DNA from: Bradyrhizobium sp. BTAi1
Lineage (GTDB): Bacteria; Pseudomonadota; Alphaproteobacteria; Rhizobiales; Xanthobacteraceae
Direction: 5' to 3'
DNA length: 64,000 nucleotides
Assembly: GCF_000015165.1 (NCBI RefSeq)
Contig: NC_009485.1
Location: forward strand, 2,954,001-3,018,000
Shown here: positions 1,101 to 43,702 of the stretch, piece after piece
Layout of the letters: every line of letters starts with the position of its first letter
Position numbering within the stretch: position 1 is the first letter of the stretch
The notes under the pieces: model-generated
The model's database searches: none
The model's input: only the letters and a program-made list of their open reading frames with translations
Told to the model about the DNA's origin: nothing
Made by a program: the position numbers and the translations under genes

Positions 1101-1189
1101 GTCGTCATGGCCGGGCCTGTCCCGGCCATCCACGTCGTTCGGCACGCTGGGAACGACGCGGATGCCCGGGACGTGCCCGGGCATGACGG
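1101..1189. repeat. Compound palindromic repeat (ATGGCCGGG family)
   Basis: Two hairpins sit back to back. The left has arms ATGGCCGGG and CCCGGCCAT; the right has ATGCCCGGG and CCCGGGCAT. A longer dyad between them uses CGTCGTTC and GAACGACG. It lies in the gap between a binding-protein gene and its permease gene, and looks like a dispersed intergenic repeat rather than a gene. Confidence 0.65.
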
Positions 1190-5510: not shown

Positions 5511-5592
5511 CCGTCATTGCGAGCGAAGCGAAGCAATCCAGGATTTCGGCGGGACTCTGGATTGCTTCGTCGCTTCGCTCCTCGCAATGACG
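5511..5592. repeat. Palindromic repeat, family A (copy 1)
   Basis: Left arm CCGTCATTGCGAGCGAAGCG.. (5511-5541) and right arm ..GCTCCTCGCAATGACG (5557-5592) are near-inverted copies separated by about 15 bases. The same pair of arms occurs at 18175, 19574, 32626 and 38382, and takes a rearranged form around the GIY-YIG gene at 41990. It fills the gap between the GGT gene and the DppF-like gene. Confidence 0.85.
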
Positions 5593-18174: not shown

Positions 18175-18260
18175 CCGTCATCATTGCGAGCGCAGCGGCG
18201 CAATCCAGACTGCCTGCTCGGATGAATTCCTGGATTGCTTCGCTGCGCTCGCAATGACGG
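18175..18260. repeat. Palindromic repeat, family A (copy 2), between paaB and paaC
   Basis: Left arm CCGTCATCATTGCGAGCGCAG.. (18175-18208) and right arm ..CTGCGCTCGCAATGACGG (18229-18260) around a 20-base spacer. It lies inside the paa operon without touching a reading frame. Confidence 0.85.
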
Positions 18261-19573: not shown

Positions 19574-19656
19574 CCGTCATCGCGAGCGCAGCGACGCGAT
19601 CCAGGGCTGCGCGTGCAGCTCTGCATTGGTCCGTCGCTTTGCTCCTCGCAATGACG
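19574..19656. repeat. Palindromic repeat, family A (copy 3), between paaD and paaE
   Basis: Left arm CCGTCATCGCGAGCGCAGCG.. (19574-19604) and right arm ..GCTCCTCGCAATGACG (19621-19656). This copy is more diverged: the right arm begins CTGCATTGG instead of CTGGATTG. Its right end is 15 bases from the paaE start. Confidence 0.8.
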
Positions 19657-32625: not shown

Positions 32626-32709
32626 CGTCATTGCCAGGAGCGCAGCGACGAAGCAATCCGGGCGTCGCGGGACGACGGATTGCTTCGCTTCGCTTCGCTC
32701 GCAATGACG
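32626..32709. repeat. Palindromic repeat, family A (copy 4)
   Basis: Left arm CGTCATTGCCAGGAGCGCAG.. (32626-32660) and right arm ..CGCTTCGCTCGCAATGACG (32676-32709), between the dehydrogenase genes at 31387 and 32723. Confidence 0.82.
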
Positions 32710-38381: not shown

Positions 38382-38465
38382 CCGTCATTGCGAGGAGCGT
38401 AGCGACGAAGCAATCCAGGAGCCAGGGAGAAGGTCTGGATTGCTTCGCTTCGCTCGCAATGACGG
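38382..38465. repeat. Palindromic repeat, family A (copy 5), inside the Liv operon
   Basis: Left arm CCGTCATTGCGAGGAGCGTAG.. (38382-38419) and right arm ..CGCTTCGCTCGCAATGACGG (38434-38465). It lies between the binding-protein gene and livH. The right-hand end runs into GGGGGAG, which serves as the ribosome site of livH at 38479. Confidence 0.85.
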
Positions 38466-41856: not shown

Positions 41857-41952
41857 CCTGGATCGCGTCGCTGCGCTCGCGATGACGGAGTTTGCGGGGG
41901 ACGGTGGCGCCCACCCCAACCGTCATTGCGAGCGCAGCGAAGCAATCCAGGA
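41857..41952. repeat. Inside-out family A repeat, left direct copy flanking the GIY-YIG gene
   Basis: A right arm (CCTGGATCGCGTCGCTGCGC.. ending GATGACGG, 41857-41888) is followed after about 31 bases by a left arm (CCGTCATTGCGAGCGCAGCG.., 41920-41952). A second copy with the same arm order lies beyond the gene at 42336-42353 and 43626-43702, making a direct repeat of about 96 bases. Confidence 0.8.
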
Positions 41953-41989
41953 CTGTCTGAACAGGAGACGGTCCGATTTGCAGTCAAGG

Positions 41990-42277
41990 TCAGTTCAGCG
42001 TTTCGTAGAGATCGAGCCATTGCGGATTGAGCGCTTCGACCAGCAATAACTTCTTCTTGCGGCTGCCGGACTTGATCTGCTTCTCGCGTTCGATGGCAGC
42101 CATCATCGTTTCGTGCGGCTTGTACCACACCAATACCTTGCAGCCATAGGTTTTGGTAAAGCCGGCAATGAGGCCTTCACGATGCTGGTAGGCCCGTTTC
42201 GGAAGATCGCTCGTCACGCCTACGTAGAGCGTTCCGTTCCGGCCGCTTGCCATGATGTACACGTAGGGATGTTTCAT
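41990..42277 (-). CDS. Small GIY-YIG nuclease
   Basis: Protein of 95 residues that is a single GIY-YIG domain, as in UvrC-C-terminal-like and UPF0213 proteins. The motif pair is VYI at 6-8 and LYVG at 17-20. Further conserved residues Arg28, His32, Glu63 and Asn84 (PKRAYQH, AIEREKQIK, NPQW) are in place, so the nuclease site looks intact. The fold nicks DNA. Start 42277 is used; an upstream in-frame ATG near 42292 is also possible. It lies between two copies of a palindromic repeat, beside an IS, and is isolated from the flanking transport operons. Confidence 0.88.
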   Translation of the reverse strand: MKHPYVYIMASGRNGTLYVGVTSDLPKRAYQHREGLIAGFTKTYGCKVLVWYKPHETMMAAIEREKQIKSGSRKKKLLLVEALNPQWLDLYETLN

Positions 42278-42335
42278 CGGCACACCCAACATCAAGCGGG
42301 GCGGCAGAGTATCACCTGGAGTCTTTTCTGGAGCC

Positions 42336-42353
42336 CCTGGATCGCTTCGCTGC
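42336..42353. repeat. Family A right arm, first part, cut by the IS
   Basis: CCTGGATCGCTTCGCTGC. Removing the IS and one CTGC restores an uninterrupted right arm that continues GCTCGCGATGACGG at 43626. Confidence 0.75.
42350..42353. repeat. Target-site duplication, left copy
   Basis: CTGC, repeated at 43622-43625. Confidence 0.7.
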
Positions 42354-43621
42354 TGTTCAGCCCGGGGACATGGCTTACACCTGTTCGGGGACATAGTTGA
42401 CACTTTTGGGGTCGCGCAAATCGATCGCTGCGATCTGATGCGCGGCAAAGAAAATTCCGAATTTTCCGTCCTGGCTGAGCGGGCGAATAGCGAGCCGCTC
42501 GCTGCGAAAGGCTTGCGGGACTTTCCAGAGCCGTCCCTCGAAACTGACATAGGCCTTGGTGCTCGACACCGAACGGACGATCTCACCCTCGTCGTATTCC
42601 ACCGTCGGAAGGCGATCCGGCATCGTTCGCGGGCTGGGCCGGTAGCGGCTCGCCGGCACATCGAAGTCGAGAGCCTCGTGGGGCCGGTCGAGATTGTAGA
42701 CGGCCCGCCATTCGTCGAGCGCCCGCTGGACGTCGTCAAGGTCCCTGTAGCGCTTGAAGGCAAAGACTTCGGCCTTCAGGCTGCGGTGGAAGCGTTCGTT
42801 CTTGCCGCGGCCCTGAGGATGATACGGCCGGCTGTGGATCGTTCGAATGCCGAGCTTCAGAAGCCAGACCGTCAGCGCGGTCCAGGGGTCTTCGAGAGTA
42901 AAGCCCCAGGGACCACCATTATCGACGAACATCGCATCCGGCAGTCCATAGCGGCGGAACGTCGTCTCCAGATGTCCTTTGACCGTAGAGCCGCGCTCGT
43001 TGTCACACGCCGCCAGGCACACGGAGAAGCGCGAGTGGTCGTCCAGCGCAGTCAGCGGGTGACAGGACACGCCGTTCTCCAGCGCACTGTGCCCCTTGAA
43101 GTCCATCTGCCACAGCTGATTGGGCGCATCCTTCTCGAAACGCCTGTACGGCTGCCCCGGCGTGCCTGCAGGCTCGCTCACGCGATCGTAGCGGCGCAGG
43201 ATGGTGTGCACGGTGGATATCGCCGGGACAGTTTGCCCGTCGCGCGCGAGACGACGTGCGAGCTTGCGCGCGCCCCAGGCCGGGTGAGCGTCGCGCAACG
43301 CGACGATCTGCTGCTCAGTCGCAGCCGCCGTGCGCTCCGGACTCCGATGCGGCCGCCGCGACCGGTCCGCCAGCGTCGTATCGCCGGCGTCATACCGCTG
43401 GATCCATTTGTAGCCGGTCTCGGCGCTGATGCCGAACTGACGGCACAGCTTCCGCCGGTTCACGCCCTCCTGCTTGGCAAGCATCACAAACTCTCGTCGC
43501 TGGTCCATGACAGACACCTCTCGCCACGGCATCGCTCGCCCCTTTGCTTGACGAATCGAGCCGATTTTGAGGTGTCAACCATGTCTCCGAACACCTGTCA
43601 GCCATGTCCCCGGGCTGAACA
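42354..43621 (-). mobile_element. IS481-family insertion sequence, complete
   Basis: A 1268-bp element bounded by imperfect terminal inverted repeats about 50 bp long. Each outer end begins TGTTCAGCCCGGGGACATGG, read inwards. It carries one full-length transposase gene and is flanked by a 4-bp duplication, CTGC. It inserted into the right arm of a family A repeat. Confidence 0.93.
42375..43532 (-). CDS. IS481-family transposase
   Basis: Transposase of 385 residues with a winged-helix DNA-binding region in the first 60 residues (MLAKQEGVNRRKLCRQFGISAETGYKWIQRY) and an integrase core with the catalytic triad Asp144 (WQMDFKG), Asp204 (FVDNGGPWG) and Glu246 (KNERFHR). It is uninterrupted, so the element may be active. 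The stop lies just inside the inner repeat region. The first ATG at 43532 has GGGG-rich sequence upstream; a second at 43508 is possible. Confidence 0.93.
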   Translation of the reverse strand: MPWREVSVMDQRREFVMLAKQEGVNRRKLCRQFGISAETGYKWIQRYDAGDTTLADRSRRPHRSPERTAAATEQQIVALRDAHPAWGARKLARRLARDGQTVPAISTVHTILRRYDRVSEPAGTPGQPYRRFEKDAPNQLWQMDFKGHSALENGVSCHPLTALDDHSRFSVCLAACDNERGSTVKGHLETTFRRYGLPDAMFVDNGGPWGFTLEDPWTALTVWLLKLGIRTIHSRPYHPQGRGKNERFHRSLKAEVFAFKRYRDLDDVQRALDEWRAVYNLDRPHEALDFDVPASRYRPSPRTMPDRLPTVEYDEGEIVRSVSSTKAYVSFEGRLWKVPQAFRSERLAIRPLSQDGKFGIFFAAHQIAAIDLRDPKSVNYVPEQV

Positions 43622-43702
43622 CTGCGCTCGCGATGACGGAGTATGTAGGATCTGCGGTGCCCGCCACAACCGTCATTGCGAGCGCAGCGAAGCAATCCAG
43701 GG
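43622..43702. repeat. Family A right-arm remainder and left arm; right direct copy flanking the GIY-YIG gene
   Basis: Begins with CTGC (the target duplication), continues the right arm GCTCGCGATGACGG (43626-43639), then a 30-base spacer with AGTATGTAGG and a left arm at 43670-43702. It is similar to 41871-41952 throughout, including the spacer ends. Confidence 0.75.

Follow-up and report, generated by a model that had tools for sequence, protein, structure and literature searches.

The 64,000-nucleotide window analysed here (Bradyrhizobium sp. BTAi1, NC_009485.1, positions 2,954,001 to 3,018,000 of the forward strand) carries a gene for a small GIY-YIG nuclease that is flanked by inverted arms of a dispersed palindrome, with an additional outer arm on each side. 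We consider it probable that the gene, together with the inverted hairpin arm on either side of it, constitutes one small mobile unit. The locus is composed as follows, in window coordinates:

41857 to 41888, minus strand: outer arm on the 3' side of the gene, a copy of CCGTCATTGCGAGCGCAGCGAAGCAATCCAGG
41920 to 41951, plus strand: arm adjoining the 3' side of the gene (right arm in gene orientation), a copy of CCGTCATTGCGAGCGCAGCGAAGCAATCCAGG
41990 to 42277, minus strand: GIY-YIG nuclease gene, 95 amino acids (PF01541, E 2.6e-15, 56.9 bits, cut-off 22.6)
42336 to 42353, minus strand: first piece of the arm adjoining the 5' side of the gene (left arm in gene orientation), cut by an insertion sequence (IS)
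42354 to 43621, minus strand: IS of the IS481 family within the left arm, a later arrival that lies outside the unit
43626 to 43639, minus strand: second piece of the left arm, past the IS
43670 to 43701, plus strand: outer arm on the 5' side of the gene, a copy of CCGTCATTGCGAGCGCAGCGAAGCAATCCAGG

The three copies of CCGTCATTGCGAGCGCAGCGAAGCAATCCAGG are exact or near. A preliminary description of this DNA had proposed that the gene is framed by arms of the dispersed palindrome and that the 5'-side arm lies in two pieces; both statements proved correct, as arm copies stand in inverted orientation on the two sides and the gap between the pieces is the IS, and direct copies of about 96 bases surround the gene as it had described. 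The IS has inverted ends of 50 nt and a transposase open reading frame (ORF) at 42375-43532 on the minus strand with profile matches to rve, HTH_32 and LZ_Tnp_IS481 (the IS481 leucine-zipper domain), among others. It is bordered by the direct repeat CTGC at 42350-42353 and 43622-43625, a short target duplication, and thus has the transposase type, ends and duplication of the IS481 family. Since the IS splits the arm, the nuclease–arm unit must predate it.

The protein clearly belongs to the GIY-YIG superfamily by its domain score, and its structure was predicted with a predicted local distance difference test (pLDDT) value of 88. Within the set of sequences A3, the residues G16, R24, H28, E61 and N80 are invariant and Y14 is nearly so, positions that we take to be of the catalytic type; conservation at these Tyr, Arg, His, Glu and Asn positions is compatible with a putative nuclease activity. 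The fold matches of the model were the UPF0213 protein 1zg2 (E 4e-4), Slx1 (E 0.028) and I-TevI (E 0.21), only the first of which was below 0.001; 1zg2 and 1ywl, both UPF0213, are the nearest solved relatives.

We searched 98 Bradyrhizobium genomes for the subfamily of this nuclease, for its arm and for the Y1_Tnp domain. The subfamily, whose limits were assigned by identity plus judgement by eye, was found at an identity of at least 62% in 20 of these genomes, and a partial, shorter copy in three more (the match in G079 covers residues 1-81 only). All 21 Bradyrhizobium loci of the subfamily have the arm core no further than 300 nt away on one side or both, and 15 of them have it on both sides at up to six mismatches; the rest include contig ends, the IS-split arm of the window and diverged arms. 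A lack of arms at most homologues would have spoken for a chance association, as the preliminary description had pointed out, and the opposite was thus found. A family search yielded 12 further members of the subfamily, one of them from the same genus, of which ten have the arm motif (up to seven mismatches) and two have longer arm variants as judged by eye. The core was absent within 1.5 kb of GIY-YIG genes of other subfamilies (0/11 loci). A view that these other subfamilies have no repeats was rejected: they bear palindromes of other types, without the window arm. The proposal that the nuclease gene is the sole spacer between two arms stands for the window and for many loci of other subfamilies, but it is not the usual layout in the window's own subfamily, in which most relatives have, by eye, a whole two-arm element on each flank instead of a single arm. 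Separately, tandem arms at a spacing of about 159-173 bp were seen beside nuclease genes at L017 (1840-2513), L008, L009, L015, L021 and L022, and L014 (G016:C710) has a tandem pair of GIY-YIG genes 518 bp apart with an arm after each.

Matched flank repeats turned out to be the general rule for standalone GIY-YIG genes. A script compared 200 nt on each side of every gene for inverted or direct repeats and scored them against a threshold. The loci are best search matches plus chosen places within genomes, not a random sample; 204 of 209 were scored (L004, L031, L078, L119 and L260 were left out for short flanks or flanks with N, and L272 is outside all counts). Matched repeats were present on both flanks in 170 of the 204 loci, and in 101 of 127 site clusters, that is, loci with common distal flanks, which were formed as the locus sets overlap (L032/L068, L062/L091, L070/L250). 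In the initial set, for which 166 of 170 loci were scored, 134 GIY-YIG loci exceeded the threshold versus 1 of 142 control ORFs, which came from the same loci and, at 150 or more amino acids, are longer than the GIY-YIG genes. No shuffled flank pair exceeded it, the shuffles being scored for inverted matches only. Loci with matched repeats come from alpha-, beta-, gamma- and deltaproteobacteria, a metagenome-assembled genome (MAG) of Nitrospiraceae, Omnitrophus, Anaerolineae and a Dehalococcoidales MAG, and the other GIY-YIG subfamilies are likewise bounded by palindromes whose types differ from the window arm. Palindromes of the type GTCATTCC..GGAATCCAG adjoin these genes in several phyla. 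An arm frame GTC-[AT..hairpin..AT]-CCA was recognized on at least one side in 137 of 207 loci. Arms of the frame TCA[TC]..C[CT]A that have a stem, left type upstream and right type downstream, stood on both sides in 91/207 and on one side in 46 more, and the opposite polarity occurred on both sides in 15/207 and on one side in 47; the frame test misses the window arm with its weak stem. Among six loci from a plasmid collection, kept outside all counts, palindromic or repeated stretches were seen by eye close to the gene in five and none in L333.

Gene and arm type also match within single genomes. In 18 genomes, 49 of 53 GIY-YIG genes had matched flanks, and when each flank was compared with the flanks of every other GIY-YIG gene examined in the same genome, 47 of the 49 matched their own partner flank best; cross comparisons between genes of one genome exceeded the threshold in 15/108 cases. 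Across loci, similarity of the proteins correlated with similarity of the arms, with r 0.55 for 106 loci and r 0.81 for 29 loci of the genus (0/999 permutations each), values that are uncorrected for shared descent and of which the second reflects two protein clusters, includes orthologous sites and leaves out the window's subfamily. The small genes are not all alike in this respect. From a set of 20 loci, 17 were scored (three had no flank left past a long reading frame): matched flank repeats were found in none of nine UPF0213-like GIY-YIG genes and in six of eight genes of a third subfamily. L273, another small GIY-YIG gene of the BTAi1 genome, has none either.

Where does the unit end? Clean units of about 350-400 bp consist of left arm, gene and right arm. 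The clearest pair is L074/L094, from Magnetospirillum aberrantis and a MAG of Rhodospirillaceae: the two are 92% identical over 399 bp, a stretch that runs from GTCAT to ATGACG, and their flanks are unrelated; the pairs of L071 with L235 and L267 behave likewise. To be usable for a wider count, pairs needed a gene identity of at least 75%, no homology further out, and a first member with a frame arm on both sides. Among the 43 such pairs at unrelated sites, which are not independent of each other, the outer end of each arm lies no more than 15 nt from the end of homology in 20, or just under half. The general statement that homology reaches exactly up to the arm ends had come from selected pairs and was rejected on this count.

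A loss of the interior with both ends kept was found once. On pSymB of Sinorhizobium meliloti Ak57, a full unit adjoins a copy that has lost most of the gene to a deletion but retains its final codons, the leader and the two arms, so that here a gene-less element carries both ends of its parent, as in miniature inverted-repeat transposable elements (MITEs). At the same place, Sinorhizobium sp. K101 shows one fused palindrome. The preliminary description had suggested that internally deleted copies spread; the deletion with intact arms is thus documented in one case, and its spread would be a further step. Filled and empty sites, whose comparison it had proposed, were seen in Azospirillum. The interval between sufB and sufC in Azospirillum lipoferum contains the gene, bordered left and right by an element; in A. 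ramasamyi, A. oryzae and A. thermophilum, read by eye, both the gene and the arms are missing from this interval. Azospirillum sp. B510 (L336) has a different repeat, CCCCCTCCCCC, at this junction. At dnaN-recF, inspection of 30 loci by eye showed a gene between arms, a gene-less two-arm element, or a DUF559-like gene, and the arm subtype of the gene-less elements differs from that of the gene-bearing ones. At the livF site, the gene is absent from the closest of the 98 genomes (G065, 93%), where a single inside-out arm pair is found.

Gene-less two-arm elements are also found in the window itself:

1103 to 1188, plus strand: short two-arm element of a second palindrome type, GTCATGGCCGGGC..GGCCATCCACG, also found beside other GIY-YIG subfamilies
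5511 to 5592, plus strand: short two-arm element without a gene
18175 to 18260, plus strand: short two-arm element without a gene
19574 to 19656, plus strand: short two-arm element without a gene, right arm diverged
32626 to 32709, plus strand: short two-arm element without a gene
38382 to 38465, plus strand: short two-arm element without a gene

The last five had been described as left arm, short spacer and right arm, which inspection by eye confirmed. At up to three mismatches, the arm core occurs in 134 copies in the 8.49-Mb genome, about one per 63 kb, and the reversed pattern does not occur. Because the core is this sparse, close flanking of the gene on two sides by accident is unlikely; the control ORFs and the pairing within genomes demonstrate it directly. 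Chance flanking was rejected on these two results and on the presence of the core at the subfamily loci and its absence from those of other subfamilies. With two inverted palindromes resembling repetitive extragenic palindromes (REPs), a spacer and many copies, the elements have the architecture of REP doublets forming hairpins (REPINs). The best explanation for the scattered short palindromes is that they are gene-less relatives of the unit, some of them internal deletions that kept both ends.

The linkage on two flanks, the pairing of each gene with its own arm type, the stop of homology at the arm ends in about half of the usable pairs and the internal deletion together support the earlier proposal that nuclease and terminal palindromes form a mobile unit. 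As for the mechanism, we infer movement and cleavage. The nuclease would recognize the hairpin of its own arm, in which a variable stem is preceded by GTC and followed by CCAG, and would cut the hairpin base when the DNA is single-stranded or extruded; host repair or replication would then copy the unit to a new place, and gene-less copies would either be moved in trans or be left as remnants. The hairpin-cutting step is a tentative one, to be regarded as possible rather than probable. It is suggested by the own-arm pairing, by the constant edges around a variable stem and by the weak fold similarity to Slx1, an enzyme that acts on branched DNA. In single-stranded folding, the window arm alone was no better than its shuffles (z 0.32); two arms of other types did fold better than theirs (z -4.82 and -5.50), as did a composite element with two arms (z -8.76). 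As the window arm alone forms a weak hairpin, a cruciform of the whole two-arm element may be an alternative substrate.

Several observations weigh against a mobile unit. No matched flank repeat above threshold was found in 34 of the 204 loci. In the 43 pairs, homology ends are less uniform than in the selected pairs: they stop short of an arm end in 19 and extend past one in four, and in L105/L111 (90% over 376 bp) homology continues 16 nt beyond the right arm. The empty Azospirillum sites diverge around the insertion point, which leaves the joint undefined; by eye, no target-site duplication of the unit was recognized at the few sites read, and neither excision nor insertion has been observed. 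In the single Neisseria locus examined, the nearest arms are of opposite polarity. The closest proteins by sequence and fold are those of UPF0213, whose genes carry no matched repeats, and GIY-YIG enzymes are hydrolytic nucleases, for which strand transfer would be new. Finally, all 98 Bradyrhizobium genomes carry the arm, and present-day arm number is only weakly tied to the subfamily: the median density is 15.5 per Mb in the 20 genomes with the subfamily and 11.4 in 75 without it (p = 0.03; the three with partial copies were set aside). The preliminary description had named equally common arms in nuclease-free genomes as a sign of coincidence, and with so modest an enrichment this is nearly what was found. 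Arm remnants that outlive the gene would explain arms in such genomes.

Of the alternative explanations, homing survives best. GIY-YIG is a homing endonuclease family, and the nuclease might cut existing gene-less palindromes, repair then copying the gene alone into the spacer with the arms staying put, which partly overlaps with movement of a unit. The weak match to I-TevI, the junction dnaN-recF, occupied by an arm-flanked gene or by a gene-less two-arm element depending on the genome, and the gene-less arm pair at livF in G065 are in line with this. However, in the 20 pairs homology takes in both arms and stops near their outer ends, the three Azospirillum sites are armless where A. lipoferum has gene and arms, and the other arm subtype of the gene-less elements at dnaN-recF indicates that the two do not simply represent one site in its filled and empty states. 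We therefore regard homing of the gene alone as unlikely. A much weaker candidate is that the palindromes are ordinary REPs moved by RAYT, a REP-associated Y1 transposase, with the GIY-YIG gene as a passenger. A Y1_Tnp match is present in 60 of the 98 Bradyrhizobium genomes, the BTAi1 genome has four such matches, and in this genome a short second-type element lies upstream of one RAYT-like gene (L348) and a frame-type arm 243 nt upstream of another (L350). Yet 38 of the 98 arm-bearing genomes are without a Y1_Tnp match at E 0.001, some of them rich in arms (220 in G022, 228 in G094), the arm frame is GTC..CCA and not the GTAG/GTGG head of most RAYT-associated REPs, and in the RAYT-like set (19 of 20 loci scored, L353 left out) the matched flank repeats of nine loci are of other kinds, TTACGGTGACAGTGCAC in seven and the GTAGGGTGGGC type in two. 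RAYT was rejected as the engine on the grounds of the genomes without Y1_Tnp and of these differing repeats, and its involvement is very improbable. The inverted motif TTACGGTGACAGTGCAC flanks the Bradyrhizobium genes L350, L352, L354, L356, L361, L363 and L364, and the GTAGGGTGGGC-type repeats belong to L365 and L367. Least credible of all is that there is no unit and that small genes and palindromes merely gather in permissive intergenic gaps, or that the palindromes are terminators, for although both are intergenic and the palindromes abundant, only 1 of the 142 (longer) control ORFs, none of the nine small UPF0213-like genes and not the small gene L273 have such flanks, and arm type matches the gene within single genomes.

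The mobile unit that we favour resembles several known systems without coinciding with any. A REPIN is an inverted REP pair with a spacer that occurs in many copies, according to the portion of PMC3116915 available, and most RAYT-associated REPs have a GTAG/GTGG head at the foot of the palindrome, according to that of PMC2817692. Shared with REPINs and RAYT are the inverted extragenic palindromes, the short spacer, the high copy number and a small enzyme gene with its own palindrome type. Here, however, the enzyme is a GIY-YIG protein and not a Y1 HUH transposase, the frame is GTC..CCAG, and in many cases a single unit has the gene enclosed by its two arms. We place the unit outside the known kinds because both the enzyme and the head motif of REPIN/RAYT systems were looked for and were absent. 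Like MITEs and their parent transposons, there are gene-less elements with both inverted parent ends; unlike in these, the gene between the ends encodes a standalone GIY-YIG nuclease instead of a DDE transposase, and target-site duplications were not recognized at the sites read. Free-standing GIY-YIG homing endonucleases of the I-TevI kind share the catalytic domain, and selfish spread is plausible for both, but here the gene is bounded by its own hairpin arms, gene-less copies are many, and no cognate target allele was identified. The UPF0213-like small proteins, presumably of the YhbQ kind, have the same domain and size and differ in that their genes lack the repeats. A further likeness is found in Neisseria, where repeats ATTCCCGC..GCGGGAAT, which we take to be of the dRS3 type, have GTC..CCAG-like edges and flank a GIY-YIG homologue in N. 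gonorrhoeae (L328, NZ_CP119142.1 1880519-1883185; 63% identity to the composed query). To our knowledge, dRS3 has no partner gene. Unlike frame arms, the nearest arms at this single locus are reversed, with the right type upstream and the left type downstream. The L328 homologue has no feature in the (incomplete) gene table, and its record is labelled as a plasmid although its 2.17 Mb correspond to a chromosome.

The open-access literature, to which our searches extended and not to subscription journals, contained no description of a GIY-YIG–palindrome link among the matches listed, nor of what spreads the GTCATTCC..GGAATCCAG palindromes. GIY-YIG together with REPINs, or with both palindromic and repetitive extragenic, gave no open-access match, nor did DUF559 with inverted repeat; GIY-YIG combined with inverted repeat, transposable element and bacterial genomes gave nothing on such a link in open-access titles and the opening parts of abstracts. 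The arm letters matched solely a gonococcal strain table in the portion of open-access text available. The words 'palindrom', 'flank' and 'proliferat' are absent from the accessible part of the main text of PMC1564403 on the GIY-YIG superfamily, and PMC12306157 (RepRanger) mentions neither GIY nor Bradyrhizobium.

The recurrence of a gene with its cognate palindromes in many bacteria suggests that some of the short repeats common in bacterial genomes stem from a type of mobile element not yet described. For each palindrome type, the matched nuclease is a candidate engine, which provides a testable pairing rule; if this is true, the enzymes of bacterial mobile elements would gain a new class, and the large number of small GIY-YIG genes in these genomes would be accounted for. 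It may well be that small standalone nucleases are the driving force of an entire class of bacterial mobile elements, not described so far, with co-evolving GTC..CCAG hairpin ends, that many common short repeats, perhaps also ATTCCC..GGGAAT of Neisseria, are decayed gene-less copies of these elements, and that DUF559 nucleases do likewise with CCCTCTCC..GGAGAGGG hairpins, a view that we hold with less assurance than that of the unit itself.

The genes that we assume to be of the DUF559 type, a similar gene being annotated as DUF559 in L339, look like a parallel system together with their palindromes. At phylum level, matched flank repeats were found in 13 of 27 scored DUF559-like loci (L278-L305; 28 submitted from 30 obtained). 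These nuclease genes are flanked by a separate palindrome family, CCCTCTCCC..GGGAGAGGG, and those at dnaN-recF were recognized by translation in L184, L177 and L190 and by eye in L175, L178, L181, L186, L189, L198 and L201. The DUF559 gene of L339 (NZ_CP155753.1 112160-113325, Sphingomonas parapaucimobilis) lies at the sufB-sufC junction. Among the plasmid loci, the GIY-YIG gene of L332 (Planktothrix agardhii plasmid p1) stands between an MmeI-type enzyme and the DISARM gene drmA, with repeated GTCATTCTGAG stretches nearby.

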